Shown in pieces: positions 4,322-52,329 of a stretch of 52,726 nucleotides of DNA. A program made the translations under genes and the position numbers. The notes under the pieces are model-generated. The model saw only the letters and a list, made by a program, of their open reading frames with translations, made no database searches and had not been told where the DNA came from. Origin of the DNA: a virus; IMG/VR virus record IMGVR_UViG_3300029922_001088, positions 1 through 52,726 of that record; one strand, given 5' to 3'. Each line of letters starts with the position of its first letter. Position 1 is the first letter of the stretch.

Positions 4322-6547
4322 ATGCCTCTACAGACAGAAAGTTCAAAACAGCCGCCAGTTTTCGCAAGCGTAAGAAAGCCTGCCTCTTCGTTAAACTCAT
4401 CTCTCGACCCGCAGGACATCACCGACCAAGAGACTCCAGATTGCGGTAATGTGACTTTCGATACAGGCTATGCCACCCCTCGCCCTGGCTCATTCCTTGC
4501 CTTCACAAAGCCTACAGGCGAGACGAATGCTTTGCTGAACACGATAAACGCCACGACCTCAAACCAAAAGGAATATCTTGTAGCTATCTACGCCCCAAAC
4601 TTCTACCTACGTGACGAGGTAAACAACCAGTGGATTAAGTTGAATGGTGCGTACACCCCTCCTACTGCTAATATCCTTTTGAACTACGGCTCTACCATCT
4701 GGAACAACGGCCTCGGAGATGACCGCCTTTACATGGGCAACGGAACCGACCCTACTATCAAATGGACGATGGGCTTGGCTCATACCACGACGAACAACCT
4801 TGCGACAGATACTACCCTCACGCTCAATGATGGCTATAAGCATTTCCCTACCGCTATCCTACCTTCACCCGCAACAGGCAACAGTATCATCGTACAAGGG
4901 CCTGCTGGCCCCGTCACGCTTATCTACAGTTCCATCGTAGGGAATGTACTAACCCTCACGACTCCCATAGGCGTAGTCCTTGGAGCAGGCACGGCAGTCG
5001 CTATGGCTATCCAGAACATGTCAGTCGGATGGTTGCCAAAAGCTACGGTAACTACCACAGCGAATGTCACAAGCGATACAGTAATCAATGTCGCTTCTAC
5101 CTTGAACTGGGCATCTTCTGGCACGGTTTCGTTCCAAGTCTCGGCATCGAGCATCGTCAATGCCGCATATTCTAGTTACTCAGGAAATGCAGTCACCCTG
5201 TCAGCGGAAATCGGAGTTGCCCTGAATGCGGGTACGCCTGTAGTTGCAAATACTCCTGGGCCACCAATCGTTCCGATAGGAAAACTATTCACCGTCTTCC
5301 AGGGAAAGATGTTCGTAGCCAACGCTGTTGGTGGTGAGACTACGATGTACTACTCGGTCACGAGCAACCCAGAAGACTATACCTTTGGCACAGACCCCGC
5401 CGCTGGTGGCTACTGTGCCTTCATAGACGGTGTAGGACAGATAACAGGCATCTTCGGCTTCGGTCAGTACCTCGGAGTGCTCAAGGGCGATTCGCTCCAG
5501 CGTTTTGAATTCGTCATAGATTCTACGAACTCTACTCAGATAGTCCAAGTCACTCCACTTGTGACTGACGCAACGATGGGTTGCCCTTACCCAACTGCAT
5601 GGGTCAAGAAGAACAACACCTTGTACTACCCTTCTTCATCATCAGGCATCTTTTCTATCTCCCCTTTGGTCACAGGTTTCCAGACGACCATTCAGCTGAA
5701 CATTCTCTCCCAGAAGATTTATAACCTGTACTTGCAAAAGAACTTCAGCACGGGTAAGACGATAGGTTTCAATACTAAAATCTTTATGACCTGTGCTTCA
5801 AATGGAAGTACGGTCAATGATACGGTGCTCGTTTACGACACGATGTTCCAATACTGGACGAAGTTCAACAACTGGGCTGTAGCTGACTGGGTAGTGCATA
5901 CACCTCTCGGCGGTACGGCTCAGAAGCTCTACTACGGCTCGAAGCAGGATAACAATATCTACGTCACCTTTGACCCTTCATACACCGACAACAACCAGCC
6001 ATACACTTCCTATGTCTACACGAAGCGTTTTGACCTTCAGCAACCTTCGATGCCGAAGTATATGTCTAAAGTATTCGTGCAAGGATATATAAACACTTCG
6101 ACGAATCTCATGTGCGATGTCCTTTATAACGAGAACGGCACTTTAGCGACTCAGACTTTCACTATCAAAGGGACAGGGCCGTATGTCTCACAGCCTATGA
6201 CCCTCGCTATGGCACAATTTATCCTTGGTATGCCAGTCATGGGAGATACTGATTTGGCTTCGACTACGGGCAATGTAGGCATCCTGAAAGTCTATCTGAA
6301 CATTCCTGTGAAATATAACTGGTACAATGTCCAGCTCAAGTTCTACTCGACGACGGCAGGAGCGAACTGGTCATTGACGGGTCTAGGCATGAATGCCCAA
6401 GTGAATACTCTTTCGCCTGCGAATCTCGGCATTGACCCCGACGGAGATGTTCCGATTCCAGTCACGCCTGTCGCTCCAGTGGATTATCTGCTTACGGAGA
6501 GTGGAGGTTTCCTTTTACAAGAAGACGGTAGTTTAATTATAATCTAA
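4322..6547 (+). CDS. Tail nozzle/tubular-B-like structural protein
   Basis: 741 residues, beta-rich with few charged clusters. The size and position (straight after the connector, before the tailspike) match podoviral tail tubular protein B/nozzle proteins. A region at about residues 315-480 has the WVKKNNTLYYPSSSSGIFSI pattern of the propeller-like repeats seen in such proteins. The gene starts at the base after the upstream stop codon. No enzymatic motif seen. Confidence 0.6.
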   Translation: MPLQTESSKQPPVFASVRKPASSLNSSLDPQDITDQETPDCGNVTFDTGYATPRPGSFLAFTKPTGETNALLNTINATTSNQKEYLVAIYAPNFYLRDEVNNQWIKLNGAYTPPTANILLNYGSTIWNNGLGDDRLYMGNGTDPTIKWTMGLAHTTTNNLATDTTLTLNDGYKHFPTAILPSPATGNSIIVQGPAGPVTLIYSSIVGNVLTLTTPIGVVLGAGTAVAMAIQNMSVGWLPKATVTTTANVTSDTVINVASTLNWASSGTVSFQVSASSIVNAAYSSYSGNAVTLSAEIGVALNAGTPVVANTPGPPIVPIGKLFTVFQGKMFVANAVGGETTMYYSVTSNPEDYTFGTDPAAGGYCAFIDGVGQITGIFGFGQYLGVLKGDSLQRFEFVIDSTNSTQIVQVTPLVTDATMGCPYPTAWVKKNNTLYYPSSSSGIFSISPLVTGFQTTIQLNILSQKIYNLYLQKNFSTGKTIGFNTKIFMTCASNGSTVNDTVLVYDTMFQYWTKFNNWAVADWVVHTPLGGTAQKLYYGSKQDNNIYVTFDPSYTDNNQPYTSYVYTKRFDLQQPSMPKYMSKVFVQGYINTSTNLMCDVLYNENGTLATQTFTIKGTGPYVSQPMTLAMAQFILGMPVMGDTDLASTTGNVGILKVYLNIPVKYNWYNVQLKFYSTTAGANWSLTGLGMNAQVNTLSPANLGIDPDGDVPIPVTPVAPVDYLLTESGGFLLQEDGSLIII

Positions 6548-6552
6548 AATTT

Positions 6553-8475
6553 ATGAACGATAAAATCAGCCAATTGCCAATCTATACGACCCCTCAGCCC
6601 ACAGACCTCATTCCTATTGTCCCTGCCGCTTCAGGCACAACAAGCGCGATTACCTATTCATCATTGGGTATCGGCGTGAGCGCAGTAGCTTCAGTTACAA
6701 ATTCGGACGGCTCTCTCACAATCTCTCCTACTAGCGGGGCTGTAGTCGCTGCTATCAACACGGCAAAGAAAAACACATGGACTAACGGAGCCACGTTTAC
6801 AAATGCCGCTGAGGTTCAAGTAGCCAACTTGAACACAGTCCTTCTAGCTGATTCATTCCCTGGCTCTGACATTGGAGCGAAGATAAATGCTGCCTATGCT
6901 GCTCTTCCTTCAACGGGGGGGGTCATTGACCTTCAGAACAGCCAGTATAGCTATTCGACTCCTATAGTTATGAATACGCCTCAGAAGTTCCCATTGCTCC
7001 GTGGCGCACCTGGAGGTGGCTCAACTCTTACATATACCGCGCTAATAGGCACAGCATGTACCATCAACGTATCAAAGCAAATCACAACAGGTTACGGTAT
7101 GGAGAATCTTAAGTTCTGCGGAGTAGGGCCAACTAACAACACGACTGGAATCTTTATCGGGGGCTTGGGAGCAGATGACGGTCTAGGGGCGGCAGGCATC
7201 ACCCTACGCAACGTCCATGTTGGAGGGCCGTTCAATGCGTGCTTCGGAACGGGTCTTGAGACTGGAAACAACGTATTCATCATCACGATTGATAACTGCG
7301 TATTCAACTTCAATGCAGTCAACGTATTCTGCAATGGCGGTGCAGGGGCAAGTGGTGGGAATACGATAAACTCTGGCGAGAACATGAGGTTCGTTAACTG
7401 CACATTTGCTGATGCCTATAACCAAACAGGAGGACTGATAGACCTATACGGAGTGAATCTTCAAATCTCTGGCATCTGCGATTACAACTTCATAGGATGT
7501 TCGTTCGATGACTCCCAGCTTTACTGCAACCTTTATGGAGGGACTGCAAACGAAGTGAACATCACGAACTGCCACTTCGAGAATCCGAACGGCCACACAT
7601 ATCCATTCATCATCACGAACCCTGGTTGGACTGCTGGTGGAACTGTAGCTATCAACATCGCCAACACCGCATTCGTTCAGGATGCAAGCCCAGCTCCTAC
7701 TGAGTTCATCAATCTCTCATCTGGCACGTTGAACATGTCTAATGTGACAGCCGTCAACAATGCTTCAGCTACGGCAAGCTACTTCGTGAACTTCGCTACA
7801 GCTACGAATGTCTGCCAGGCTACCTGGACTGGATTCCAGAACGCGAACTCAGCCGTAACTTACATGACGAGCACAAGCGTCTATGCACAGCCTATCGGTG
7901 TTGCTGACGGCGCAGGCAACTCAATGGTCGTCACCGAGGCTGGAAAGATTTACGGTGGTACATTCAACAATGTGACCGTAGCTACTCCTGCAACAGCCGC
8001 TACTTTGGAACTTGCTAACAATTCCACATTCGAGACCACAGGAGCCTACACTACGAACATCACTTCTACCGCCGCCACTGCGGTTACGCTTCCTACCTCT
8101 GGTACTCTTGCTACTCTTGCAGGAACAGAAACATATACGAACAAGCGTATTACCCCTCGTGTACTTTCTGCTGCCGCCTACACTACGAATACAGGGACGT
8201 CCATAAACGGAGATACTATGGATATGTTCATAGTTACGGCTCAGACGGGAGCTTTGAAATTCAACAACCCGACAGGAACTCCGACAGACGGACAGAAGCT
8301 AATCATATCCGTGGCTTCTTCTACAACTTCGGCACGAGCATTGACATGGGATACTGCGTATGGCGCGACCACCGTTGCCCTTCCTACCACTACAGCGGCA
8401 ACAACAGCTACCCTGACAATAGGTTTCATCTGGTCGGCAAGCAAATCGCTTTGGCAATGTGTAGCTTCAGCTTAA
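6553..8475 (+). CDS. Tailspike/fibre with right-handed beta-helix
   Basis: 640 residues. The N-terminus (1-90) starts like many phage tail-attached proteins (short MNDKISQLP-type segment, then Ser/Thr/Ala-rich). A glycine-rich KINAAYAALPSTGGVIDL block (about 108-125) is the usual entry to pectate-lyase-like beta-helices. Repeats with evenly spaced NCxF/GCSF residues (about 230-370) form the helix. The C-terminal part is a small beta domain. Likely receptor binding, possibly with polysaccharide depolymerase activity; no catalytic residues can be assigned by eye. Confidence 0.75.
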   Translation: MNDKISQLPIYTTPQPTDLIPIVPAASGTTSAITYSSLGIGVSAVASVTNSDGSLTISPTSGAVVAAINTAKKNTWTNGATFTNAAEVQVANLNTVLLADSFPGSDIGAKINAAYAALPSTGGVIDLQNSQYSYSTPIVMNTPQKFPLLRGAPGGGSTLTYTALIGTACTINVSKQITTGYGMENLKFCGVGPTNNTTGIFIGGLGADDGLGAAGITLRNVHVGGPFNACFGTGLETGNNVFIITIDNCVFNFNAVNVFCNGGAGASGGNTINSGENMRFVNCTFADAYNQTGGLIDLYGVNLQISGICDYNFIGCSFDDSQLYCNLYGGTANEVNITNCHFENPNGHTYPFIITNPGWTAGGTVAINIANTAFVQDASPAPTEFINLSSGTLNMSNVTAVNNASATASYFVNFATATNVCQATWTGFQNANSAVTYMTSTSVYAQPIGVADGAGNSMVVTEAGKIYGGTFNNVTVATPATAATLELANNSTFETTGAYTTNITSTAATAVTLPTSGTLATLAGTETYTNKRITPRVLSAAAYTTNTGTSINGDTMDMFIVTAQTGALKFNNPTGTPTDGQKLIISVASSTTSARALTWDTAYGATTVALPTTTAATTATLTIGFIWSASKSLWQCVASA

Positions 8476-11305: not shown

Positions 11306-13462
11306 ATGGCTCCTATTACTTTTACAGTAGGCAACGGTAATGCTTCAGCATCTTCTGCAACAAATGATTCTACGGTTGCAACTCAGAATACTGCCCCTCT
11401 TATTACAGGCATAAACCCTTATGCGGCCACTCCTCAAAGTCCGAATGCTCTCCCTTTACCTGGAGGCACGGCGACTGCTGCCGCTCCTGCTACTACAACA
11501 ACTGCTCCTGCATCAAGCACAACAACCTCTCCAGTTGCCTCTACAACGGCTCCAGCTGTCTCTACAGGAAGTGCTGCACCTGTAGCAAACACAGGTGCAA
11601 GTGCTACTAATACTTCTGTCACGGCTGCGAATGCCAATGTATCGCAAGGAGCAAATGTCCCCTGGTCTTCAAATTTCAATGCGGCTCAGTACCTTACTCA
11701 ATACGGGCCTGACTCTTTAAGCACCAACGATGAAGCACCTTCCAGTTCTGCTTCGGCTGTCACAAGTCATAATGCAAATGTAGCTTCTACGTCTGCTTCA
11801 AATCCTTCTACTACCTCTGCCGATGCGAACTGGGCTAATGCAGCCTCACAATCTTTGAATGCTTCCCAGGGTCTAACTGGGGCAGCGGCTATAAGCGCGT
11901 CCACTTTACAAGGTCTTCTCACTGCCACAAATGGGGATTATAGTGCCGCTATGTCACTTGCCCTTCAGGGTTCCCAGAGCGTTCAGGCTCAGCAGGCAAC
12001 TGACCAACAGGATTCAGAACAAGCATCTCAGTACGCAGCAGCTAATGCTTCCCAGAGTCAGCAGTTCCAGATTGCCTCACAGCAACTTGAGACCGACAGG
12101 GCTAAATCTATATCTACGGCAACGGCACAACTCGGTGCTGTGTCAGGCGGTACTTTGAACTCCGACCAGAATGCCTTTATGGCTGGGATAAACTCTCAGT
12201 ATGATACCGCACAGAATACTTTGATGTCTCAGGACGCAGCAGCTACGGATGCTCTATCGCAAGGAAATGCTCAGGCATATCAAGCTATCCAGGCTCAGAT
12301 GGAACAGACTAAACAGACACTTGCTACGAATGTGGCAAACATTCTAAACTCATCTGCTGCTAACCAACAGCAGGCTTCAGAGTTCGCTACACAGCAGGCT
12401 GATACAGTTGCGAACCAGCAGGCTACTCAGCAGGCAAATCAGATGAAGATTGCAGATACGGAACTTTCTTCTATCCCAGCCGCAACAGGTCAAGCTCTAT
12501 CAGCACTTCCTACGACAGACCCATCAACACCAGCGGGCACAGCGGGGGCATGGACGGCTGCTCAGCTCGCTACTCTTCAAGGTGCTCCTGGCTATCAGAG
12601 TCTTATTAAAGGTGGTCTTAATCCTCAACAGGCTCTCGGCTATATCCAAAGTGCAGCTAATGGGAATGCTGAAACTGCAAAACAGCAGACCATCGCAAAC
12701 CAGGCCGTCACCGCACAGGCTGCCGCTGAGAATGCTCAGGCTAACTATTACTCCAAACTTGGTACTGAAGCCGACAATTCAACATGGCAGTCTCTACCTA
12801 TGGGTGGTGACTTCCAAGCAGCTATAAATACGGTAGCCACAACAAATTCACAAAAGGCGACTCTTAGCTCAAGTATCAGTAGTCTTCTTGCCGCAGGTAA
12901 TACCGATGCAGCTAAAATAGCATTGAGCAATGCGGCTCTAAATCCAAAGGGAGTAACTACTGGTTTCAATTCTGCATTGCAGAACGTAGCTGTCATGGCG
13001 ATGGCAGCCGCTCCTTTGATTGCGGATATAAATGCTCTGCCTGCATCACAGAAGTCTGGCCTATTGAATGGAAGCATCCAGTCTCTTGCATCTAGTCTTG
13101 GTCAGAACCCAGACCCAGCGTTGCAGAAGATTGGTATGGAACTTGCCCACTTTGCTCCTATCTACGCAGCTTCAGTCGTGGGTGTTCGTGGAGCCTCACA
13201 AACGGCACAGGGTAAGGGAACATTCGCAGACCTTATTCCTAACATGAAGGACGGGGCATCTTTATCTATCACCGACCTCCAAGCCCTTGTTAGTACAGCA
13301 ACAGACCTTACGAACTCTGCCCTTCAGGCAAAACTCGACCCAGCTACCTATCAGGCTATTTACGGTAACGGTCTAGGTAATGGTCTTGGCTCTTCAAGTA
13401 GTTCATCATTCATCTCTCCTTCCACAAGTTCACTAGCACAAAGCCTTGGTATTACACTCTAA
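11306..13462 (+). CDS. Large Ala/Gln/Ser-rich virion protein (internal/ejection-like)
   Basis: 718 residues. The first 170 are a low-complexity Ala/Thr/Ser/Pro region. Long Gln/Ala-rich coiled-coil helices follow (about 180-460), then helical domains with one hydrophobic stretch (about 560-580). The composition and the place before another giant protein resemble podoviral internal virion (ejection) proteins, but a tape-measure-like role cannot be excluded. Its stop overlaps the next ATG by one base. Assignment from composition and context. Confidence 0.55.
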   Translation: MAPITFTVGNGNASASSATNDSTVATQNTAPLITGINPYAATPQSPNALPLPGGTATAAAPATTTTAPASSTTTSPVASTTAPAVSTGSAAPVANTGASATNTSVTAANANVSQGANVPWSSNFNAAQYLTQYGPDSLSTNDEAPSSSASAVTSHNANVASTSASNPSTTSADANWANAASQSLNASQGLTGAAAISASTLQGLLTATNGDYSAAMSLALQGSQSVQAQQATDQQDSEQASQYAAANASQSQQFQIASQQLETDRAKSISTATAQLGAVSGGTLNSDQNAFMAGINSQYDTAQNTLMSQDAAATDALSQGNAQAYQAIQAQMEQTKQTLATNVANILNSSAANQQQASEFATQQADTVANQQATQQANQMKIADTELSSIPAATGQALSALPTTDPSTPAGTAGAWTAAQLATLQGAPGYQSLIKGGLNPQQALGYIQSAANGNAETAKQQTIANQAVTAQAAAENAQANYYSKLGTEADNSTWQSLPMGGDFQAAINTVATTNSQKATLSSSISSLLAAGNTDAAKIALSNAALNPKGVTTGFNSALQNVAVMAMAAAPLIADINALPASQKSGLLNGSIQSLASSLGQNPDPALQKIGMELAHFAPIYAASVVGVRGASQTAQGKGTFADLIPNMKDGASLSITDLQALVSTATDLTNSALQAKLDPATYQAIYGNGLGNGLGSSSSSSFISPSTSSLAQSLGITL

Positions 13463-16285: not shown

Positions 16286-16462
16286 ATGAAAATCACAGAA
16301 CCAATTATAGGAAATGAAACGGTAGCTTCATATTTGGATAGGCTAAAGATGATTGTGGAAATTTCTCCTACCTATGAGGGGGCAATGTATCTCATACGTG
16401 CAGAATTTGATAAGAAGGATAAAGAGATTAAAAAGAAGGCTAACACTAAAAAAACCAAATGA
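16286..16462 (+). CDS. Small charged helical protein before groES
   Basis: 58 residues, Lys-rich C-terminus (about 40-58). It overlaps groES by 4 bp (ATGA) and so is probably coupled to it. Its first residues (MKIT) repeat those of GroES, with matching DNA (ATGAAAATCACAG). Not recognised. Confidence 0.55.
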   Translation: MKITEPIIGNETVASYLDRLKMIVEISPTYEGAMYLIRAEFDKKDKEIKKKANTKKTK

Positions 16463-16770
16463 AAATCACAGGAGTTACACCAATAGGGGCGCGATGTGTT
16501 GTGGAGCCTCACAAGGCGGCCACGGAGTCAGCATCAGGGCTTGTCCTTGAGCATAACTCAAACGCCTCAGGGGCGAAGTCGCTAGGGAAGATTATAAAGA
16601 TAGGTACAGACAGCAAGTTCCAGGGCATGGAGGGTAAGAACATCCTCTTCAGGCGGTACGCCCTAGACGAGCAGACATATATAGATAGCACAGGCCGCAA
16701 GGAAGTATATATAATTGACGATTCCGAAGTTCTTGCTTTCTTAGAAGTAGAAACCGATGATAAATCATAA
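16459..16770 (+). CDS. groES: GroES-like co-chaperonin
   Basis: 103 residues, close to the usual 95-100. The order of the Cpn10 fold is clear. The N-terminal strand has PIGARCVVEP (compare PLHDRVIV in E. coli). A mobile loop at about 20-33 ends in SGLVLEHN, corresponding to the GGIVL hydrophobic tripeptide that docks on GroEL. GKIIKIG follows (about 44-50), and a C-terminal strand reads IIDDSEVLAFLEV (compare IMSESDILAIVEA). It would cap the phage GroEL-like chaperonin encoded 24 kb away, or host GroEL. The last 20 or so codons appear again, recoded, at the end of the following HNH gene. This copy has an extra TDDKS tail. Confidence 0.85.
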   Translation: MKITGVTPIGARCVVEPHKAATESASGLVLEHNSNASGAKSLGKIIKIGTDSKFQGMEGKNILFRRYALDEQTYIDSTGRKEVYIIDDSEVLAFLEVETDDKS

Positions 16771-17392
16771 ATGTAGAGATTGTCCGACTATTATTCACGA
16801 AACCAACCCTAACGGCTCATGGTTATGTAAACCATGCTCAAAAGTAGACAAAGCTCGATACAGGGCTAGGTATGTTGAAAAAGCAAAGGCACAAAAGATT
16901 GCATGGCTTAAGGCTCACCCAAATTGGGAAAAGGAATACGCTCCCAGAAGGAGATTACTACAACTTCAAAGGGATATAAACAACCCAGAAATGGTCGCCG
17001 CTAGGCAAAAGAGATATGTTGAATCCCATAAAGACAAAACCAGAGAAGATATAAGGCGACATCAGAAACAGTATAGAATTGCAGGGACTCTCTCAGATGA
17101 TAAAAAGAAAGAGATAATCGCTAGATATGATGGATGTGCTATTTGTGGTCTGAAGGTAAAGTTAGGAGTAGACCATATTACCCCTGTTTCAAAAGGTGGC
17201 AAGAGCACAGACGATAATCTTCAGGCTTTATGCCCCTCATGTAACTCTAGCAAGGGTGACAGGATATTAGATGAAGTATCGAAGGCGGCAATTAAAAAGC
17301 TGAGCCTTCTTAGACATCAGGTAAAAACTGGCAAGAAGGAAGTCTACATCATAGATGACTCAGAGGTACTCGCTTTCCTAGATGTTGAGTAA
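16757..17392 (+). CDS. HNH homing-type endonuclease carrying a recoded groES 3' end
   Basis: 211 residues, overlapping the groES end by 14 bp. Residues 1-30 hold two CxxC pairs (zinc ribbon). A basic linker follows, then an HNH/McrA domain (CAICG, VDHITPVSKGG, DDNLQALCPSCNSSKGD; about 131-172) with all metal-binding positions. The final residues (TGKKEVYIIDDSEVLAFLDVE) copy the GroES C-terminus (TGRKEVYIIDDSEVLAFLEVE), while most codons differ synonymously. The simplest reading is an insertion into groES by an element that brought its own recoded 3' end, leaving the old 3' end fused behind the nuclease. Whether the tail affects the nuclease is unknown. Confidence 0.85.
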   Translation: MINHKCRDCPTIIHETNPNGSWLCKPCSKVDKARYRARYVEKAKAQKIAWLKAHPNWEKEYAPRRRLLQLQRDINNPEMVAARQKRYVESHKDKTREDIRRHQKQYRIAGTLSDDKKKEIIARYDGCAICGLKVKLGVDHITPVSKGGKSTDDNLQALCPSCNSSKGDRILDEVSKAAIKKLSLLRHQVKTGKKEVYIIDDSEVLAFLDVE

Positions 17393-17642: not shown

Positions 17643-17861
17643 CTAGTTCTCCAATGTAAACGTCTCCACTATCAGGTAGTGCTTGTTATCGTTAAAGACA
17701 GGGTGGTAGTGGAGTGAATGTCCAACCTTGTAGCCAGTGGCCTTTTTTATACATCGTATCATCGCGCCTTCCCCGCCACCTTTGTCCAAAGACATAACCT
17801 CCCACTCACCCATGTGGGGCTTGTCTATAAAACCTATCTTGTCTCCTATTTTCAGTCTCAT
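17643..17861 (-). CDS. Small SH3/KOW-like protein with FTLEN tail
   Basis: 72 residues, starting MRLKIGDKIGF, the x-VGD-x-V pattern of small SH3-like/KOW barrels. It ends ETFTLEN (codons ACA TTG GAG AAC). It is the last gene of the minus-strand arm and the most distal member of a set of proteins sharing this C-terminal peptide around the AAA+/VWA pair. Function unknown. Confidence 0.65.
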   Translation of the reverse strand: MRLKIGDKIGFIDKPHMGEWEVMSLDKGGGEGAMIRCIKKATGYKVGHSLHYHPVFNDNKHYLIVETFTLEN

Positions 17862-17865
17862 GTTT

Positions 17866-18075
17866 TTAATTTTCTAATGTTATTATCTCTGTCTCGTCGT
17901 AGAAGTCTAAATTGGCGGCATATTCGTGTGCTATGAGGTTACTGTTTGCGACCCACCTCACAAAAATAACTTCTAATGAAATTTTAGTTATAGTTCCGAC
18001 ATCCCCATTAGAAAGACCTACACCGCCGACCCGTGTAACCCTATCCCCCACATGGAATCTTTTTTTAAGTGGCAT
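17866..18075 (-). CDS. Small SH3/KOW-like protein with EIITLEN tail
   Basis: 69 residues. FHVGDRVTRVGG and GDVGTITKI form a typical KOW/SH3-like hairpin (residues 7-35). The C-terminus reads TEIITLEN (codons ATA ATA ACA TTA GAA AAT). The start follows the neighbour's stop after one base. No catalytic residues; probably a binding module. Confidence 0.65.
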   Translation of the reverse strand: MPLKKRFHVGDRVTRVGGVGLSNGDVGTITKISLEVIFVRWVANSNLIAHEYAANLDFYDETEIITLEN

Positions 18076-18076
18076 T

Positions 18077-18214
18077 TTAGTTTTCTAGCGTGATTATTTC
18101 AGGGGGGTCTGGTACTTCAGCTTTTTTCTGAGCTAAGACACTTGCATAATTGTCCGCTATTTTTCTCATAGCTTCGTTATATCTTCTTTGGAAATCTTCG
18201 TATTGATTGTTCAT
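18077..18214 (-). CDS. 45-residue helical protein with EIITLEN tail
   Basis: Short gene starting within the stop of the upstream metallopeptidase-like gene (ATGA overlap). Residues 3-33 are a charged amphipathic helix, followed by a Pro linker and the EIITLEN tail (codons ATA ATC ACG CTA GAA AAC). It has no SH3-like part, which shows that the tail is independent of the fold. Confidence 0.65.
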   Translation of the reverse strand: MNNQYEDFQRRYNEAMRKIADNYASVLAQKKAEVPDPPEIITLEN

Positions 18215-18603
18215 TTCTTTATTACCTTCAAGGCCGCACTGTAGTCAATCATATTTCCGTAAATCTCTGAACTTAAATCTTTCGCAAGGCGAATCCTCTC
18301 TTTAGCTAGCTTGTTCCTATCCTTGATGTTATCTTTCAAAAAGCGGTGCTGGGCTTGATAGGCGGCGACCTCCTGCTCGAACCTGAACTTGTCGTCTGAG
18401 AGATACCTGTCCCACCATATCTCCGTGCCACCGATTTCGATTTGTTGCAGGCTGTGAACGTACTCGTGAACTTGAAGGTCTACCGACAGCTCGTACTTGG
18501 CGTATATGGTATCTCCATAGCAGAACACCGTAGTGTCAGGCAGCGGCCCGAATTTTGCTACACATCTATCGTACACAGGACACTTTTCGTTTGATATTTT
18601 CAT
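18211..18603 (-). CDS. HExxH zincin-like protein
   Basis: 130 residues. VHEYVHSLQQ (about 45-54) has the HExxH zinc-binding motif of metallopeptidases. FEQEVAAYQAQHRF (about 75-88) offers the downstream Glu of gluzincin-like or Wss/SprT-like minimal domains. Three Cys lie near the N-terminus. It lacks the EIITLEN tail although genes on both sides have it. Peptidase activity is plausible but unproven. A second HExxH protein is at 38148-38579. Confidence 0.6.
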   Translation of the reverse strand: MKISNEKCPVYDRCVAKFGPLPDTTVFCYGDTIYAKYELSVDLQVHEYVHSLQQIEIGGTEIWWDRYLSDDKFRFEQEVAAYQAQHRFLKDNIKDRNKLAKERIRLAKDLSSEIYGNMIDYSAALKVIKK

Positions 18604-18607
18604 GTTT

Positions 18608-18799
18608 TTAATTTTCTAGGGTTATCTCCTGTATCTGTTCTTTAATTGACGACTTTGACCATATGGCCTTTTTACCATCCTTAAACTTTATCGTAACAGA
18701 AGCCCACTCCACCCCTTCATTAAAGGTAAGTTCACCGACTTCGGTTTTGCCGCTTCCATCAGGTTTTCTATAGATAAGGCAAAGAGGTTGTTTAGCCAT
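18608..18799 (-). CDS. Small beta-rich protein with EITLEN tail
   Basis: 63 residues, alternating charged and hydrophobic residues typical of a small beta-sheet. It ends QEITLEN (codons ATA ACC CTA GAA AAT). The next start follows after a short A-rich junction. Not recognised. Confidence 0.6.
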   Translation of the reverse strand: MAKQPLCLIYRKPDGSGKTEVGELTFNEGVEWASVTIKFKDGKKAIWSKSSIKEQIQEITLEN

Positions 18800-18802
18800 G
18801 AT

Positions 18803-19057
18803 TTAGTTCTCTAATACGATTATTTCTATTTGAGGCTCGCACAATTCTATATCTTCCCAGTCAGGCCACCAATAAGTACCAGATGCTATGGATTTATAAT
18901 CTTTAGGCAACGCCGATGGTCGGTGTATTGCCGTTTGTTGATGTTTTTCAAGTTCCATTATTGGCCCGTGTTCTGTAACGATGTGGGCGATATATCCCCT
19001 ATCTCCCTTATAGGATATGTAATCGCCTACTTTGAAATTATTATATTTTCTTTTCAT
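18803..19057 (-). CDS. Small SH3/KOW-like protein with EIIVLEN tail
   Basis: 84 residues. FKVGDYISYKGDRGYIAHIV (8-27) is a KOW/SH3-like start; the middle has Trp-rich WWPDWED. The tail is IEIIVLEN (codons ATA ATC GTA TTA GAG AAC), with Val in place of Thr. Its start overlaps the end of the VWA gene by 17 bp, so translation is probably coupled. Confidence 0.65.
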   Translation of the reverse strand: MKRKYNNFKVGDYISYKGDRGYIAHIVTEHGPIMELEKHQQTAIHRPSALPKDYKSIASGTYWWPDWEDIELCEPQIEIIVLEN

Positions 19058-20945
19058 GTGCAGTAGTGACCATACCTGTTAGCATCTCATAAAAGACTTC
19101 AGGCATCATTTCTGGCATATCGACTTTTCGGCCTCCGATGCTTTCTATTTCATCTCCACACTCCAAACCTATAGGCATCAACTTAACCCCTTTGCTTTTG
19201 AACGGCTCCAAGGCCGCTAGCGTGTCGTCTACGTTCACACCGCCATCAGTGAGCATAACCAGTGCTTTGTTCATCTCAGGGCGTTTTAGGAGGTTTGAGG
19301 CCCTAATAGCGACCTCAAGGGAGGTTCCCCCCCCTGATTCCGTAGCGTACTTTGCCATCCCATCTTGAACTTTTTTGTCAGCCTTGGCCTCGAACTTCTT
19401 AGTCATGTAGGTATCGGTATCGAAGTGGATGATTTCATAAGGCATGTCGAGCTTTGAAAAGACCTCTGAGAGCATGACAAGGGCGCGGGTCGTGTGGGTA
19501 TTCCTGTTGTTGTATTCCATCGAGCCTGAATTGTCCACAAGGATAGAGAAGGCGAAGGTACGGATGGTATCTACTGCCTGTTGTTTGTTCTTGAAGAGCG
19601 TCCTGATTCCAGTGGCGTGTTTGTAGAGCGAGCGGGTATTCAACTTCCCCCTTTTCTTATTCATCTCAAATTTTACCGTCTGTTCCGTGCGTCGAATCTT
19701 CGTAAGTTTAGAGGTCAGGCTTCGCACCTCGTCTTTGACCGACTGGCTGAGTTCCTTATAGTTGCCGTCTTTCCATTCTTTAGGCACTGTTTCAGTCCCA
19801 GGCTTCTGACCCCAGGCGGTCACTTGACCATCCTCGGAGTTAGGCTTGCCCGTCTTACCCTGTGATTCAGCTTCCTGCATCTTCTGGTCTGCCATTTCTT
19901 TGATAGCCTTACCCATAGCTTCAGCGGCCATCTGTCCCAAAGCATCTTTCATGCTTTCGGTAGACTCGTGGGTATTCTTCAAGAGGTCTTCAATCTTCGG
20001 GAACACTTCTGTTTCCAAAACAGTTGTAACCTGCTGGGTACTCGCCTTAGAGATAACCATAGGAATGGCCGCTTCAGTCAGCTCGAAGCGACGAAGCATG
20101 TCTTCCCTGAGCTTCATAGGCGTCGGCAGGCCGTATCCTTCATGTACCACTACCGCCTCGTAGTCATAGATGTTCGGATGGGCGATGTAGCCTTCATCCA
20201 TAGCAAACTTCTCAAAGTCCTTTTGGTTTTTTACTTTGCCTGTAGGTTTCTTTCCATACACCTTCTCATACGCCTGCTCGAAGGTCATCTTGGGAGTTCC
20301 TAATACTCCCTGTAATTTAGAGACTTTCTGAGACCCATACATCAGCTCGTTTATCTGGGCAGTCGTAGAGTTGATGACCATAGTTTTCGCCAAGCGAAAG
20401 ATGTCACCCTTTTGTATGTAGGTCTGAGTGAGCTTGTTCAGCACCTCTTCGTTGTAACGATAGATTTCCGAAGCCGAAGGGTATGCCTGTTCCATCATGT
20501 CGTCTACACGGAAGTTATCGAAGACCGTCGCCACGTCGTAGGCCGAGTTCTTGTACTTATCGAACCATTCGCTTTTGAGGCGCGACTCTGGAGTACAGAG
20601 CTTAATCTTTCCTACCTCATGGAGAAGGAGTGCAAGCATCTCGCCTTTGGTCGAGAAAAGAAGCGTGGAAGGATTGTAGATGAGCGTCTTGTTCTCCAAA
20701 TCCACACCCCACTCCTTGCCCACCTTAATCTTCACGCCCTGAGAAGCGGCGATGGACGTTGCCATCTGTGTGATGAAGGCATAGGAAAGAACCTGCGGAC
20801 GATAGGATGAATAGCCAGACCACTTGCCCGTCTTCTGGTAGTCATCTTTCTCGTTCCACTTCCTGTCCCAGCCGAGGTCGTAGTTATCGTATTCATACGC
20901 ATCCTCTTTGGCCTCGACCCCGTTTTCAGTCCAAATGTATTTCAT
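19041..20945 (-). CDS. VWA-domain protein (CobT-like partner of a MoxR ATPase)
   Basis: 634 residues. The N-terminal 330 are a metallopeptidase-like/VWA-associated helical region containing LLLHEVGKI (HExxx-type, incomplete zinc motif). An acidic linker (about 345-400) follows. The C-terminal VWA domain (about 455-630) has a complete MIDAS: DNSGS (D-x-S-x-S), GGGTS (Thr) and TDGG (Asp). This matches CobT-like proteins that work with MoxR/CobS-type AAA+ ATPases. The ATPase gene lies one small gene upstream in the same operon. The target is unknown. Confidence 0.85.
   Translation of the reverse strand: MKYIWTENGVEAKEDAYEYDNYDLGWDRKWNEKDDYQKTGKWSGYSSYRPQVLSYAFITQMATSIAASQGVKIKVGKEWGVDLENKTLIYNPSTLLFSTKGEMLALLLHEVGKIKLCTPESRLKSEWFDKYKNSAYDVATVFDNFRVDDMMEQAYPSASEIYRYNEEVLNKLTQTYIQKGDIFRLAKTMVINSTTAQINELMYGSQKVSKLQGVLGTPKMTFEQAYEKVYGKKPTGKVKNQKDFEKFAMDEGYIAHPNIYDYEAVVVHEGYGLPTPMKLREDMLRRFELTEAAIPMVISKASTQQVTTVLETEVFPKIEDLLKNTHESTESMKDALGQMAAEAMGKAIKEMADQKMQEAESQGKTGKPNSEDGQVTAWGQKPGTETVPKEWKDGNYKELSQSVKDEVRSLTSKLTKIRRTEQTVKFEMNKKRGKLNTRSLYKHATGIRTLFKNKQQAVDTIRTFAFSILVDNSGSMEYNNRNTHTTRALVMLSEVFSKLDMPYEIIHFDTDTYMTKKFEAKADKKVQDGMAKYATESGGGTSLEVAIRASNLLKRPEMNKALVMLTDGGVNVDDTLAALEPFKSKGVKLMPIGLECGDEIESIGGRKVDMPEMMPEVFYEMLTGMVTTAHEKKI
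20386..20400. repeat. Dispersed palindrome TTTCGC-CAA-GCGAAA
   Basis: Copy of the genome-wide palindrome, inside the VWA gene. Confidence 0.8.
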
Positions 20946-20946
20946 G

Positions 20947-21204
20947 TTAATTTTCCAAGGTTATTACTTCGACAGTTGGTAGCAAATTATCTTCAGTATA
21001 TCCAAGTCGCATATTCTCATTTTTTTCACTAACATAGGCTATGATATAGAACTTGTCGTGAATATCGACAATTTCAACTATAGCCTCTTTATCTCTAGCT
21101 GGAAAAGAGCCGTGTCTGAGCATAGTCTTAGGTATCCCCTGGACTTCAGTAGAATATAATCCGTAGTCCTTAACTTTCACTTTGTCTCCAACTTGGAACT
21201 TCAT
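20947..21204 (-). CDS. Small SH3/KOW-like protein with EVITLEN tail
   Basis: 85 residues, placed between the ATPase and VWA genes with only one base on each side. The start MKFQVGDKVKVKDYG is the shared SH3/KOW-like opening. The tail is VEVITLEN (codons GTA ATA ACC TTG GAA AAT). Its central position makes it the best candidate for an adaptor of the ATPase-VWA pair. Confidence 0.7.
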   Translation of the reverse strand: MKFQVGDKVKVKDYGLYSTEVQGIPKTMLRHGSFPARDKEAIVEIVDIHDKFYIIAYVSEKNENMRLGYTEDNLLPTVEVITLEN

Positions 21205-21205
21205 T

Positions 21206-22354
21206 TTAGATTACTTCAATATCTTCATTAGTAACACCGAAGTCAGTCCCAGGGCGGATGTATTCGACCTTGTCGATGACCGTTCCTTTTGAGCCACAGT
21301 CCTTGTCAGCCCGCACGACCCAGCGTAGATTGCCGAACTTGAAGTCTCGGTTGCCTGATGCTTTAACTTTCTTTGCTACCTCTAGGACATCAGCCACAAT
21401 CGTACCTGTCTGGCCTCCCGCCTTTGGAAACTCTGACTTGAACACAACTTTTGTACCGATGCCGATAGCTTTGCCGTCTGCTGTGGTCTTTGAATCTGGC
21501 ACCATAAAGTGTGCGCCGAGAATCGTTTGCACGGCCTGAATGTCATCCTCTCCTGCTTTGTTCACTACCGTCACCTCGGCAGAAGGGATAAACTTGTTGT
21601 ACTTAGGATAGACCGACGCCCACATGATGAGGTCACGAGTCGATAAAGGGAATATCATTTTGTCGTTGGCTCGAATTTCTACAGCGAACTTGACCATGCT
21701 TTTTGCTACATCTAGGGCGATGCCTGTTCGAGTAACCAAGATTTCGGCCTCGACATCTGGTGGACAGAACTCTACCTTGACGATACAGAAGCGGGACTTG
21801 AGTGCAGGGTTCAACTCCTTCGTGCCTGCGTAGTCCTTCATAGGGTTCATAGAGGCGAAGAAGCGATAGCCCTCTGCGGGTACGACGACCTCTTTGCCTT
21901 TCTCTACGAGCACGATACGGGCATCATCATCGAGCAACTGGTGCAAGATGAAGAGAATCTCAGCCGAGGCCGCGTTGATTTCATCAAAAAGAACCCAGTA
22001 CCCCTTCTTCAGGGCGTCGGTCAAAAGACCATCTACCCACTTCGTACCTTTCTCGTCGATGAGCCAGCGGCCTACAAGGTCTTCGACAGTCGTGCCGCCG
22101 TTCAGGTTGATACGTACAAAGGCATTCCCTGTCTTGTGCGCCAAATGACGTACAAGGCTTGTTTTGCCACTGCCAGTCGCTCCTTCAAGCAGAACAGGCC
22201 ATCCTGCGTTCATAGCGATAGCGACCTGCTCCAGAGGCTTCCTGTGGTCAGCGAAGTCGATGTCCTTCGGTATGAACTCCTTATCCGCAATCTTGCCTGT
22301 ATTGATAGCAAGTTTTACCCTTGGCGAAACTGTAAATTCTTCTAATGTTTTCAT
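21206..22354 (-). CDS. MoxR/CobS-type AAA+ ATPase with C-terminal SH3/KOW-like domain
   Basis: About 382 residues from the ATG at 22354 (five codons inside the longest frame), which fits the A-rich junction used by its neighbours. Walker A is LLEGATGSGKTS (about 50-61). Walker B is VLFDEIN (about 113-119). Sensor 1 lies in FFASMNPMKDYAG and an arginine finger in NPALKSRF. Residues 293 to the end hold two strands pairs (IGTKVVFKSEFPKAGGQTGTIV and a later KGTVIDKVEYI) like the SH3/KOW-like small proteins next to it, and the protein ends EDIEVI. It probably remodels a complex together with the VWA protein. Confidence 0.85.
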   Translation of the reverse strand: MKTLEEFTVSPRVKLAINTGKIADKEFIPKDIDFADHRKPLEQVAIAMNAGWPVLLEGATGSGKTSLVRHLAHKTGNAFVRINLNGGTTVEDLVGRWLIDEKGTKWVDGLLTDALKKGYWVLFDEINAASAEILFILHQLLDDDARIVLVEKGKEVVVPAEGYRFFASMNPMKDYAGTKELNPALKSRFCIVKVEFCPPDVEAEILVTRTGIALDVAKSMVKFAVEIRANDKMIFPLSTRDLIMWASVYPKYNKFIPSAEVTVVNKAGEDDIQAVQTILGAHFMVPDSKTTADGKAIGIGTKVVFKSEFPKAGGQTGTIVADVLEVAKKVKASGNRDFKFGNLRWVVRADKDCGSKGTVIDKVEYIRPGTDFGVTNEDIEVI

Positions 22355-22358
22355 GTTT

Positions 22359-22592
22359 TTAATTTTCAAGCGTGATTATCTCGATTGCTAATTCAACCTC
22401 ACTCTCGTATGCCCCTCTTTGATACGCGTCTTCATCTGTCGGGTCTGCTTCGTAATAGATAGGGTTGTTATTGTCTGCGCTGACTTCTGCCACCGTAAAA
22501 ATATGCCCCACAGGGAAGTCTCCTTCATCGAGGTCGCCGTCACTCTCTAGAACCCTGAGCCTATCTCCAATTTTGTACTTTGCTTTCTTCAT
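22359..22592 (-). CDS. Small SH3/KOW-like protein with EIITLEN tail
   Basis: 77 residues from the ATG at 22592, preferred over a longer upstream start because it follows the preceding gene's stop by two bases. KYKIGDRLRVL and GHIFTVAEV give the SH3/KOW-like pattern. The tail is IEIITLEN (codons ATA ATC ACG CTT GAA AAT). It directly precedes the ATPase gene. Confidence 0.65.
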   Translation of the reverse strand: MKKAKYKIGDRLRVLESDGDLDEGDFPVGHIFTVAEVSADNNNPIYYEADPTDEDAYQRGAYESEVELAIEIITLEN

Positions 22593-22594
22593 GT

Positions 22595-22789
22595 TTAATT
22601 TTCGAGGGTTATGATTTCTAAGGCGAGTTTCCATTTTTCAGGACACTGGCAGACTGCAACCTGTTTACCATTAACCATAAGTCTTATATAGGGTTCACTT
22701 TCAGGTCTCTCAAGGACTTCATATCTCTGACCCACCTGTATACGACCACATTTTTCTATAACTTCTATGATGTCTCCTTTCTTAAACAT
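22595..22789 (-). CDS. Small SH3/KOW-like protein with EIITLEN tail
   Basis: 64 residues, MFKKGDIIEVIEKCGRI and GQRYEVLERP opening. It ends LEIITLEN (codons ATC ATA ACC CTC GAA AAT). First tagged gene in the order of transcription of this cassette. Confidence 0.65.
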   Translation of the reverse strand: MFKKGDIIEVIEKCGRIQVGQRYEVLERPESEPYIRLMVNGKQVAVCQCPEKWKLALEIITLEN

Positions 22790-37054: not shown

Positions 37055-37252
37055 ATGGCTACAGACCCACATAAAGATGACGAGATGAGGAAAAAGGCTT
37101 ACATGGCCAAATTTGGTTCTTTCACATATAAGGTGGACGCCCTGGCTAAGAAGATGGAGAACATAATGTACAAGGCTATCATTGAGTCAGCCATGCAACA
37201 GGTGCAGAAGCCTATAGAGCCTAAAGTAGAGATTATCGAACTAATCAATTAA
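37055..37252 (+). CDS. 65-residue helical protein ending EIIELIN
   Basis: Charged helical protein. The tail KVEIIELIN resembles the EIITLEN tail of the minus-strand cassette (codons GAG ATT ATC GAA CTA ATC AAT). Not otherwise recognised. Confidence 0.5.
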   Translation: MATDPHKDDEMRKKAYMAKFGSFTYKVDALAKKMENIMYKAIIESAMQQVQKPIEPKVEIIELIN

Positions 37253-37255
37253 AAC

Positions 37256-37513
37256 ATGCCACCATATCAAAACACAGGAGGACAGGCGGGGCCACCACTA
37301 GGAGGGTACATAGACTGGAACAATCTACAGAATGTCCCCTATGTGCCACAGCAGCAGAACGCATGGACTCTAGGTAACGGTTCTATCAACCCAGAGCCTG
37401 GAAGCTGGGTACCTGAGTCTAAGGTCTTCACAGACAAAGAAGGCAGGTTGTATAACATCAAGAATGGCGAGTTAGTTGAGATACCACCTGAAGACATTAA
37501 CCTAGAGAACTAG
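37256..37513 (+). CDS. 85-residue Pro/Gly/Asn-rich protein ending DINLEN
   Basis: Low-complexity start (MPPYQNTGGQAGPP) and a short beta unit (GRLYNIKNGELVEI). Tail EDINLEN (codons GAC ATT AAC CTA GAG AAC). Next gene starts at the base after the stop. Confidence 0.55.
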   Translation: MPPYQNTGGQAGPPLGGYIDWNNLQNVPYVPQQQNAWTLGNGSINPEPGSWVPESKVFTDKEGRLYNIKNGELVEIPPEDINLEN

Positions 37514-38158
37514 ATGAAAGGAAAGCAATTCACACTAGATGATGTCCACGACTGGGGGCCAGACAAAGTAATGGCCTTCCTTCACTTCGTAGACTACTTC
37601 CGAGAAGAGAACATCTCAAAGGTCACGCAGGACAAGGTAGATGCTTTGCACAAGCTACCAGAAGACCATCCCTATTACGAGTTCATACAGAGGGCGAACG
37701 AGGAAGTAGCCCGCAAGTTCTACTTCAAGATGATGGTCATGTGCCGCACCTTCGTACTATATATAAGGAACAACCCCGATAAGGTGACAGAGATGATGAA
37801 GCCTATCTTGGCCGAGAACAACTCCTTGAAGAACGCCTTGAACCCGATAAAGAACGTAGCCATCACAGCCCCTGCGGTAGAGCGAAGCCTGACGATGGAT
37901 ACCAACGTAGCTCTTTCGGATATAATGATAAAGAGCATAAACGTCTTCGACCAGATACTCAGCAGTATGACCGAGGAGGAGATAAAGAAGATGAGGACAG
38001 AAAGCAAGTTCCAGGCCCTCTCGAAGCTCGCCTTCGTCTTCACGGAGTCGAGGAAGGTGCGCCCGAATGTCGCCGTCTTCCAGAACATCAAGAACTTTAA
38101 TAACGTAGAGGATGTCGAGAAGGCTTTAACAGATTTCGCTACAGACAATGAAAGCTAA
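37514..38158 (+). CDS. 214-residue helical protein of the packaging region
   Basis: Helical throughout, with charged N- and C-termini. The position two small genes before the terminase large subunit makes it a candidate small terminase or packaging factor, but no HTH is obvious. Overlaps the next gene by 11 bp. Confidence 0.5.
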   Translation: MKGKQFTLDDVHDWGPDKVMAFLHFVDYFREENISKVTQDKVDALHKLPEDHPYYEFIQRANEEVARKFYFKMMVMCRTFVLYIRNNPDKVTEMMKPILAENNSLKNALNPIKNVAITAPAVERSLTMDTNVALSDIMIKSINVFDQILSSMTEEEIKKMRTESKFQALSKLAFVFTESRKVRPNVAVFQNIKNFNNVEDVEKALTDFATDNES

Positions 38159-38579
38159 AAACCCCACGAAAAAGGACAAGGATAGGGTAAAGGAACTGGT
38201 ATGGGGCCTAGATGGGCTTTTCAATACTATCAACTACGACCTCGGATTTATCTGGGCTACCGAGGATTTTAAGGAATGTGCCGCTTCTGTCGATGTGGAC
38301 GAGCCGTATCAGAGACTTGTTATCACGATATACCCTTCATTTTGGAATCATGATAGGGACAACCAGAGAAAGTTTATCCTCCATGAGATGTGTCATGTGT
38401 TGACCGACCCGATGAACAGCGTAATCAAGAACCTGCAAAACGGTATACTTGAAACCGACCATCACAGAAGCAACGCAGTGGAGCGTTCCACTTCTTATCT
38501 CACAGAGATATTGGATGCCTTCTTGCTAGGCTCATACAAGAAAAAGAAACAGGCTTATGCTAAATATATAAAGAAATGA
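38148..38579 (+). CDS. HExxH zincin-like protein
   Basis: 143 residues. FILHEMCHVLTDP (about 76-88) has HExxH in the setting typical of minimal metallopeptidases (SprT/ImmA-like). HHRSNAVERSTSYL (about 104-117) supplies possible third ligands (His/Glu). C-terminus basic. A second, unrelated-looking HExxH protein is at 18211-18603. A role in processing virion or host proteins is possible. Confidence 0.6.
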   Translation: MKAKNPTKKDKDRVKELVWGLDGLFNTINYDLGFIWATEDFKECAASVDVDEPYQRLVITIYPSFWNHDRDNQRKFILHEMCHVLTDPMNSVIKNLQNGILETDHHRSNAVERSTSYLTEILDAFLLGSYKKKKQAYAKYIKK

Positions 38580-38839
38580 GAAAAAGAAAGATGTTTATTG
38601 TAGATATAGAAAAGCTAGGCCAGATACTCTCTGTAGGTTCTGCTTACAAAGTAGTATCAGGGTGGCCGAAAGGTTCTGATGTATATGCAATGGAGTTTAA
38701 CTATTCGACTAGACGATACCATTTATATGTAAGTCACCCCTCTTTCCCTGATGTACCTGAAGGTGAAACTTGCCCTCTGGGGGAAGATACTGTGGTGGAG
38801 TTTCTTACCAAGAAAGAGTTAATTGAACTAGAAAATTGA
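38576..38839 (+). CDS. 87-residue protein ending ELIELEN
   Basis: Beta-rich small protein (YKVVSGWPKGSDVYAMEFNY, RRYHLYVS). The tail KELIELEN (codons ATT GAA CTA GAA AAT) again ends in LEN. Overlaps both neighbours by 4 bp, so the tail codons also overlap the terminase start. Confidence 0.6.
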   Translation: MRKRKMFIVDIEKLGQILSVGSAYKVVSGWPKGSDVYAMEFNYSTRRYHLYVSHPSFPDVPEGETCPLGEDTVVEFLTKKELIELEN

Positions 38840-40428: not shown

Positions 40429-41129
40429 GAAAAGGAAAAGAAATCATCTGTATAATATGTGGGAAATCTAAATACTATAACCCTTATAGGATAAAGTATC
40501 TCGCACCCAAATACTGTTCTAACCCATGTAAGCAAAAGGCTTTCGTGAATCCTAATCCGTTTAGCAAGGTTTTGAAGAAGTGTTCTGTCTGTAGCAAAGA
40601 AGTCTATCGGCCTTTAAGTCGGTCTGATACGGAGTATACTGCTTGCTCAAAAGGGTGTCATGGGAAGATTTCTGTGAGGAATTTAGGCAGTAGAATGTCT
40701 GGGAAAAGTCACTCTCAGGAAACAAGGAAGAAGATGTCGAAGTCGATGAGAGGTAAGAAACATAAGTTACCCCATGAATATGTCCAGCCAGTTCATAAGG
40801 TAATCAGGCAATTCTATGAGTATCGGTGTTGGCGTGAAGCTGTCTATAAGAGAGATGACTTTACCTGCCAGAAGTGTGAACAATGGGGTGGAAAATTGCA
40901 GGTTCACCACATCATTCCTTTCTCTGTCATTATAAAATATGTGAAGATGAGCTACGGGGAAGATGATATAGTAACTAAAGTATTTAAGTTTCCTTTAACT
41001 TTCGATGTAAGCAATGGAGTAACGCTCTGTAAGGAATGCCACAAAAATACAGATACTTACTTGAAGGTCATTCCAAAGAAAGTAGTTGAGGAGAATTTTA
41101 TAAAGATAGGTAACTTAATTAAACTATGA
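40425..41129 (+). CDS. HNH endonuclease with zinc fingers and NUMOD3-like repeat
   Basis: 234 residues, overlapping terL and groEL by 4 bp each. N-terminal CxxC fingers (CIICGKS, CSVCSKE), a NUMOD3-like DNA-binding segment GKSHSQETRKKMSKSMRGKKH (about 90-110), then HNH (CQKCEQWGGKLQVHHIIPFS ... NGVTLCKECHKNT, about 147-208). This is the build of phage homing endonucleases. Inserted without breaking either neighbour. Codon use is A/T-richer than that of terL. Confidence 0.8.
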   Translation: MRKGKEIICIICGKSKYYNPYRIKYLAPKYCSNPCKQKAFVNPNPFSKVLKKCSVCSKEVYRPLSRSDTEYTACSKGCHGKISVRNLGSRMSGKSHSQETRKKMSKSMRGKKHKLPHEYVQPVHKVIRQFYEYRCWREAVYKRDDFTCQKCEQWGGKLQVHHIIPFSVIIKYVKMSYGEDDIVTKVFKFPLTFDVSNGVTLCKECHKNTDTYLKVIPKKVVEENFIKIGNLIKL

Positions 41130-52202: not shown

Positions 52203-52329
52203 TCATTAAATAAAACACAATGCCACCAACACAAAACATATCACTCGCAGGACTTTCAGCAGAGGAGCTTAATAACCTTCTCGTTCAGGCACAGGCTTCC
52301 AAGGCACTTGCTGTAGCAAATGCGGCAGT
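52203..52329. repeat. Right copy of the exact 127-bp end repeat
   Basis: Identical to 1-127, then diverges at 52330. Confidence 0.85.

Follow-up and report, generated by a model that had tools for sequence, protein, structure and literature searches.

The phage DNA analysed here, a stretch of 52,726 nucleotides (hereafter the window), encodes at least eight and probably eleven miniproteins that end in closely similar peptides of the EIITLEN type. Comparison with other phages places them in a recurring pattern, in which several largely non-homologous small proteins near CobS/CobT carry one phage-specific C-terminal motif. We favor, at a probability of roughly 0.55, the interpretation that this tail is a C-terminal docking tag recruiting small, fast-evolving proteins to an AAA+/VWA machine, with the protein bodies most likely serving as adaptors. 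A search of the literature retrieved no description of such tailed miniproteins.

The conserved tail and the proteins that carry it

Eight of the tailed miniproteins are encoded on the minus strand, and their C-termini, stop positions, and codons were exactly those listed in the preliminary description of this DNA. The motif EIITLEN terminates four of them (17866..18075, 69 aa, with an SH3-like start; 18077..18214, 45 aa, helical-looking and with a PDPP linker; 22359..22586, 75 aa; and 22595..22789, 64 aa, with an SH3/KOW-like model of low confidence), and ETFTLEN (17643..17861, 72 aa), QEITLEN (18608..18799, 63 aa), EIIVLEN (18803..19057, 84 aa), and EVITLEN (20947..21204, 85 aa) were found once each. 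Among 81 small ORFs, we counted 54 similar C-terminal pairs versus 0, 2, and 4 for internal seven-residue stretches of the same ORFs, and 500 column-preserving shuffles yielded a mean of 1.7 and a maximum of 6 such pairs. Three further tail-like ends, missed in the preliminary description, are specified by plus-strand genes lying just upstream of the terminase gene (37055-38839), namely those of a 65-aa helical-looking protein (37055..37252; KVEIIELIN), an 85-aa protein (37256..37513; EDINLEN), and an 87-aa protein whose gene overlaps the start of TerL (38576..38839; ELIELEN). The number of such ends expected by chance was 0.14, and the probability of three or more was 4e-4.

The tail had originally been described as conserved at the protein level, and codon usage bears this out. 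The frequencies at which tails share a codon (observed versus expected from genome codon usage) were 0.11 versus 0.20 for Leu, 0.24 versus 0.25 for Thr, 0.57 versus 0.50 for Glu, and 0.46 versus 0.52 for Asn, that is, close to what free codon choice predicts, which indicates constraint on the peptide rather than on the DNA; by this measure, junction DNA was not conserved above the peptide. It is scarcely plausible that translation signals, or recombined junction DNA, produced the tail as a side effect. Seven of the eight minus-strand tails do lie a few bases ahead of a start codon, and in tails of the type found in phage T5S1, described below, the Glu codon partly overlaps the Shine-Dalgarno (SD) sequence of the next gene (GAG in 14/16). 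However, codon bias in T5S1 is clear at Glu only (GAG), Pro, Phe, and Leu codons being free, as is codon choice in the window tails; Asp codons occur in tails where the SD is not needed; and tails are kept without a close following gene, both in T5S1 (14807) and in the window at 17643, the last gene, which has none downstream, so that the tail is not merely the start signal of the next gene. The free Pro, Phe, and Leu codons, the Asp variants, and the tails lacking a following overlap led us to reject SD coupling, through a GGAG that encodes the T5S1 tail Glu, as the sole cause.

No significant homology was detected among the bodies of the window's tailed miniproteins (best body E = 0.3), and a Pfam/PHROG search with them gave no confident assignment. 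A search for homologs of these bodies, with or without the tail, likewise came back empty. Six of the eight minus-strand bodies have in common an SH3/KOW-like, KxGD-like start, and a structure model of an SH3-like body places L-E-I-I within the last strand; together with the paralogy of some T5S1 bodies to one another, this would fit a fast-diverging SH3-like family of which the tail is simply the last beta strand. We regard such a paralogous fold as quite unlikely, since TLEN extends beyond the strand at a pLDDT near 50, the tail also sits on helical or other proteins (those at 18077, 18608, and 37055), and the motif switches from phage to phage yet is always C-terminal, which is unexpected of a strand within a fold.

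Tail arrays around CobS/CobT in other phages

In T5S1 and about ten IMG/VR phages, 3-16 miniproteins each, located around CobS/CobT homologs, share a tail within the phage, and the tails are phage-specific (P.EFL, P.EY, P.EML, P.E[LIV]..W, and LVxW). The 16 tailed miniproteins of T5S1 are interspersed with CobS/CobT and generate 114 tail pairs, versus 2/1/0 in the controls. Clusters of at least four tails were detected in the window, T5S1, L032, L034, L035, L038, L039, and L094, with CobS/CobT nearby, and inspection added L033, L036, L113, and, weakly, L058 (three ends). With one criterion applied to IMG/VR, tail clusters appeared in 7/80 loci selected for CobS versus 0/80 selected for a helicase; among the helicase-selected loci, CobS/CobT was present in L113 alone, which is also tailed on a looser reading. 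Arrays were present in 8/66 loci with CobS and CobT versus 0/85 others (Fisher p = 0.001, an optimistic value, the loci being phylogenetically non-independent and their sampling non-random). Regions of SPO1, T4, N4, and S-H38 contained no tail arrays. Tails are also absent from most CobS/CobT phages, such as ICP2, nickie, RHEph10, and CRP-810, and are therefore not required by the machine.

All T5S1-type tail phages fall into one clade of the CobS tree (support 100/100), with similar tails on sister branches, and the window is an independent case outside this clade. Of the T5S1 early-region genes, only those for CobS and CobT occur in 10/10 tail-clade loci while being missing from 4/4 untailed Cobavirinae, and none of the 16 T5S1 tailed bodies recurs in these ten loci or in the four untailed Cobavirinae. 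Among Pfam families, CobT and CobT_C match the CobT of the tail clade, whose CobS is an AAA_5 protein.

Outside the window, no IMG/VR contig or GTDB genome was found to hold an array of the exact tail, and none of the exact matches (five in IMG/VR and one in GTDB genomes) is a C-terminal tail array. Likewise, IMG/VR yielded no protein closely related to the VWA or the AAA+ protein of the window. Six TerL relatives (L010 and L014-L018) showed no tail array in the parts covered, which for one of them, G001, comprised the full record; G001 has no AAA+/VWA cassette, and no VWA protein was found in the other five records. The window's CobS/CobT proteins are only distantly related to the T5S1 type; with no second window-type phage found, the window's link stands at n = 1.

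The distribution of the tails also bears on a virion dock, one of the partners first proposed, which has nothing in its favor except the three tails adjoining TerL. A tag for virion targeting or packaging, comparable to the capsid-targeting sequences at the N-termini of T4 internal proteins, could explain the position of these three genes immediately upstream of TerL, but T5S1 tails are confined to the replication/early-type half, the structural half being devoid of them, and the untailed relative G001 has the window's virion genes in common; we rate this explanation as very unlikely.

The AAA+/VWA machine as candidate partner

As first noted, the larger minus-strand neighbors, that is, an AAA+ ATPase (21206..22351), a VWA protein (19041..20945), and a zincin-like protein (18211..18603), lack the tail. 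The MoxR/CbbQ/CobS-like ATPase, which ends in DIEVI and has an extra C-terminal region, is assigned by its profile matches (AAA_5, 1.1e-30; CbbQ_C, 1.6e-7) to the MoxR/CbbQ/AAA_5 class. The CobT/NorD-like VWA protein (VWA match, 1.7e-7) retains an intact MIDAS (DxSxS-T-D; here DNSGS, GGTS, and TDGG) and scores 16.4 bits against CobT_C, for which the cut-off is 21; L032 exceeds the cut-offs of both CobT_C (75 bits) and CobT (43 bits). The VWA domain was modeled at a pLDDT mostly above 80, and its best solved-structure match is the NorD VWA in the NorQD complex, with the Rea1/MDN1 MIDAS bound to UBL also among the matches. PADLOC reported nothing beyond weak P-loop-type matches.

The initial proposal of a terminal tag for a common partner is well supported as a prediction from sequence, and the AAA+/VWA complex, then one of several partners considered, is now the favorite: independent arrays with other tags surround CobS/CobT in other phages. 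The phage chaperonin is disfavored. The window's own GroES loop (SGLVLEHN) resembles the tail IIVLEN, as if the tail mimicked the GroES mobile loop to dock on phage GroEL, but a GroEL homolog was found in 0/9 tail-phage records (some of them fragments) by a search that was positive in two controls, and five GroEL-bearing relatives of the window were tailless in the parts covered. We consider this mimicry highly improbable and dropped it on account of the nine records.

CbbQO and NorQD are reported to engage an acidic client residue through the MIDAS of their VWA protein (PMC4660213, PMC9976466). The VWA MIDAS is a candidate reader of the tail, through the tail's acidic residue. This residue is missing in L036 tails and present in only about half of those of L113, so that a universal MIDAS-binding Glu fails as a unifying idea in the former and partly in the latter, and is kept only as a candidate.

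We infer that CobS/CobT may bind the tail and that the bodies may act as adaptors. The short constant tail would dock the miniprotein on a machine of the MoxR-NorD/CobS-CobT type encoded among the tailed genes, the variable body would grip a target, be it a host or a phage complex, and the tail would hand this target to the ATPase for remodeling or dismantling. A bolder version, possible but doubtful, is that CobS/CobT in these phages acts as an AAA+ unfoldase, and perhaps as a metalloprotease, rather than as a cobalamin enzyme, and is programmable: quickly swapped tailed adaptors would aim it at many host targets (e.g., defense or replication complexes) while the tag co-evolves with the machine.

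The linkage to CobS/CobT would also fit a degron, in which the tail marks the miniproteins for removal after use, as a timer, by the AAA+/VWA machine with HExxH or by a host protease. HExxH is present in 63/70 phage CobT; the window's VWA protein has lost the second His (degenerate HEVGK), and two free-standing HExxH proteins adjoin tailed genes, namely the zincin-like protein (HEYVH) and a protein with a weak SprT-like match (HEMCH; 38148..38579, plus strand) that directly precedes a tailed gene. These features make a protease, also listed originally, a possible partner. Nonetheless, proteolysis is predicted from motifs that may be structural, and degradation by a host protease would leave the CobS/CobT link unexplained; we deem the degron unlikely.

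Relation to known systems and implications

Short C-terminal peptides recognized by an AAA+ machine, either directly or through an adaptor, are familiar from ssrA/SspB/ClpXP and other AAA+ protease tags and adaptors; the tags described here, by contrast, are a genetically fixed part of different proteins, the set of which is specific to each phage, and they vary in sequence by phage. T4 internal proteins carry an N-terminal capsid-targeting sequence, constant on several small proteins and cleaved for virion packaging, and are alike in that a constant short peptide marks different small proteins, whereas here it sits at the C-terminus, for the most part on proteins encoded away from the virion module. 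The tail-clade phage proteins resemble aerobic cobaltochelatase CobS-CobT (CobNST) in their Pfam CobT, CobT_C, and AAA_5 matches. The CbbQ-CbbO Rubisco activase and NorQ-NorD likewise combine an AAA+ ring with a VWA protein bearing a MIDAS, but in the portions consulted of their descriptions each has one dedicated client, and a group of small proteins sharing a tail is not mentioned (PMC4660213, PMC9976466).

Viral CobST has been interpreted as hijacking host CobN (PMC8651126), and many phages carry cobS/cobT, annotated as vitamin B12 metabolism genes, whose function has been called uncertain (PMC11288001); the consulted portions of these two articles do not mention tailed miniproteins. The tail offers a sequence-level handle on this puzzle. 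If the docking interpretation is true, phage CobS/CobT would be a general client-recruiting machine, the clients of which could be listed by sequence as every small protein with that phage's tag at its end. Dozens of anonymous phage miniproteins would thereby become one working set, and the tails and their machines would constitute natural tag-receptor pairs that differ between phages.

A shared tail on the window's miniproteins

The preliminary description had reported eight small minus-strand proteins (17643-22789) ending in E-I-I-T-L-E-N or a close variant, and all eight C-termini and their codons are indeed present in the window. Comparison of the last seven residues of the window's small ORFs yielded 54 similar pairs, whereas internal segments of these ORFs gave 0, 2 and 4, and 500 column-preserving shuffles gave 1.7 on average and 6 at most. 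The proposed conservation at the protein level was borne out by the shared-codon frequency between tailed genes, which approximates the expectation from genome codon usage (observed/expected: Leu 0.11/0.20, Thr 0.24/0.25, Glu 0.57/0.50, Asn 0.46/0.52). As no gene follows the final member of the array (17643), the tail is not explained as the start signal of a downstream gene. Without their last eight residues, the proteins, hereafter bodies, showed no significant mutual similarity (best E = 0.3); a KxGD-like start is common to 6/8 of the tailed proteins, being absent from 18077 and 18608. The product of 22595-22789, modelled from six diverged window sequences, is predicted with low confidence to be an SH3/KOW-like barrel, with a tail pLDDT of ~50-59. 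Further tail-like ends occur before TerL on the plus strand, namely EIIELIN (37055-37252), EDINLEN (37256-37513) and ELIELEN (38576-38839), against a chance expectation of 0.14 among ~100 other window ORFs (P of at least three, 4e-4).

The tailed genes are interleaved with those of an AAA+ ATPase (21206-22351; AAA_5 1.1e-30, CbbQ_C 1.6e-7), a VWA protein (19041-20945; VWA 1.7e-7) and an HExxH protein (18211-18603). The VWA protein retains an intact MIDAS metal site (DNSGS, GGTS, TDGG), and its confidently modelled VWA domain (~460-625) best matched, among solved structures, the NorD VWA domain in the NorQD complex, with Rea1/MDN1-MIDAS structures bound to UBL clients as further matches. The AAA+ protein itself ends in DIEVI, resembling a tail cut off before TLEN, a likeness that may be due to chance.

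The exact window tail was not found as an array in other IMG/VR contigs, and GTDB genomes returned a single isolated match outside any array. A collinear relative (G001; TerL 58%) lacks the AAA+ and VWA genes and LEN ends altogether. In other TerL relatives GroEL adjoins TerL; the portions read contained no tails, and these records yielded no VWA protein. Two window bodies retrieved no homologue from the phage collection at E 0.1. A GroEL gene lies beside or near the terminase gene in L010, L015-L018 and the window (38836-42676). An HNH-type gene (16757-17392) comes after GroES (region 16459-17392); its product ends in KKEVYIIDDSEVLAFLDVE, a repeat of the GroES terminus RKEVYIIDDSEVLAFLEVE, which looks like the outcome of an endonuclease gene inserting near that terminus and duplicating it. 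Near-identical small ORFs (MPPTQNISLAGLSAEELNNLL...) at both record ends (18-230 and 52220-52426) are what a gene present twice, or an imperfect terminal repeat, would give.

Phage-specific tails accompany CobS and CobT

A search with the window VWA protein retrieved three phage records, among them T5S1-k141_653015 (T5S1), which encodes CobS, CobT and 16 interspersed miniproteins of ~60-74 residues with a common tail, [ILV]P.E[F][LFM]x. Similar C-terminal pairs numbered 114, versus 2, 1 and 0 in internal controls, and the virion half of T5S1 showed no tails. The tail Glu codon (GAG in 14/16) often overlaps the Shine-Dalgarno of the next gene; tails nonetheless persist where this overlap is absent, and Pro (16/16) uses all four codons, those of Phe and Leu being likewise free. 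Some T5S1 tailed bodies are paralogous to one another. A free-standing 146-residue T5S1 protein (3277-3717) starts like the N-terminus of CobS (5413-7008), EFHS..VWDP.

We then surveyed 80 IMG/VR loci picked by T5S1-type CobS and 80 picked by T5S1-type helicase. Tail clusters of at least three were evident in 7/80 of the former versus 0/80 of the latter, in which the sole locus also carrying CobS/CobT, L113, has tails visible on inspection. Arrays (clusters of at least four) occurred in 8/66 loci with CobS and CobT versus 0/85 without (Fisher p = 0.001, the loci being neither independent nor a random sample). Tail types differ among phages: P.EF[LF]E (L032, L034), P[KRE]EF (L033), VP.EML (L035), P.EY (L038), P.E[LIV]..W (L039), LVxW (L036), IPKEY (L094) and a weak set of three ends (L058). 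No arrays were found in the T4, SPO1, N4 and cyanophage S-H38 regions, nor in CRP-810, ICP2, RHEph10, nickie, pJN2-26 and BUCTxx99, where CobS/CobT are present; CRP-810 has both genes, yet no tails.

A phylogeny of 69 CobS proteins united the tail phages of T5S1 type with L036, L037 and L058 in one clade (support 100/100), and sister phages carry similar tails. Inspection showed tails in L036 and L058; the L037 sequence stops just after CobS. CobS and CobT were the only T5S1 early-region genes tested that occurred in 10/10 tail-clade loci and 0/4 untailed Cobavirinae (CRP-4, CRP-6, ICBM2, CRP-9), whereas 0/16 T5S1 tailed bodies recurred in any other locus tested; the bodies are thus replaced, but the tag and the machine persist. 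A small, cysteine-rich, zinc-ribbon-like untailed T5S1 protein (12859-12999) recurs in 6/10 tail-clade loci and none of the untailed relatives tested.

What may read the tag

A constant, phage-specific peptide is thus carried on changing bodies and linked to CobS/CobT. Of the partners put forward in the preliminary description, the phage chaperonin, on which the tail would dock, is disfavoured, as no GroEL was found in nine tail-phage records, some of them fragments, by a search that detected the positive controls. The AAA+/VWA complex gained support from its co-occurrence with arrays; that this machine reads the tag we infer, and the tailed bodies would, one step further, serve as adaptors. 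In CbbQO the client is bound through an acidic residue at the VWA MIDAS, a mode that the authors predict for similar systems too (PMC4660213), and NorQD behaves likewise (PMC9976466). By analogy, the phage MIDAS could bind the acidic residue found at a fixed place in most tails; this is only a candidate contact because L036 lacks the residue and L113 has it only partly. The main rival to adaptor function is a degron, by which the tail would mark the miniproteins themselves for removal by the machine or a protease. HExxH, present in 63/70 phage CobT proteins, lends it support, as do two free-standing HExxH proteins, HEYVH (18211-18603) and HEMCH (38148-38579), that adjoin the window's two tailed-gene groups, the window VWA protein itself reading HEVGK, with the second His lost.

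We found no description of shared-tail miniproteins in the open-licence literature searched; the component parts are of known kinds, and it is for their arrangement that we found no description there. Viral cobST has been interpreted as hijacking host CobN (PMC8651126), and its function called uncertain (PMC11288001). We give roughly one chance in three to the reading that phage CobS/CobT is not a cobalamin enzyme but a programmable AAA+ unfoldase, perhaps a metalloprotease, which exchangeable tailed adaptors would aim at many host targets, the tag co-evolving with the machine.
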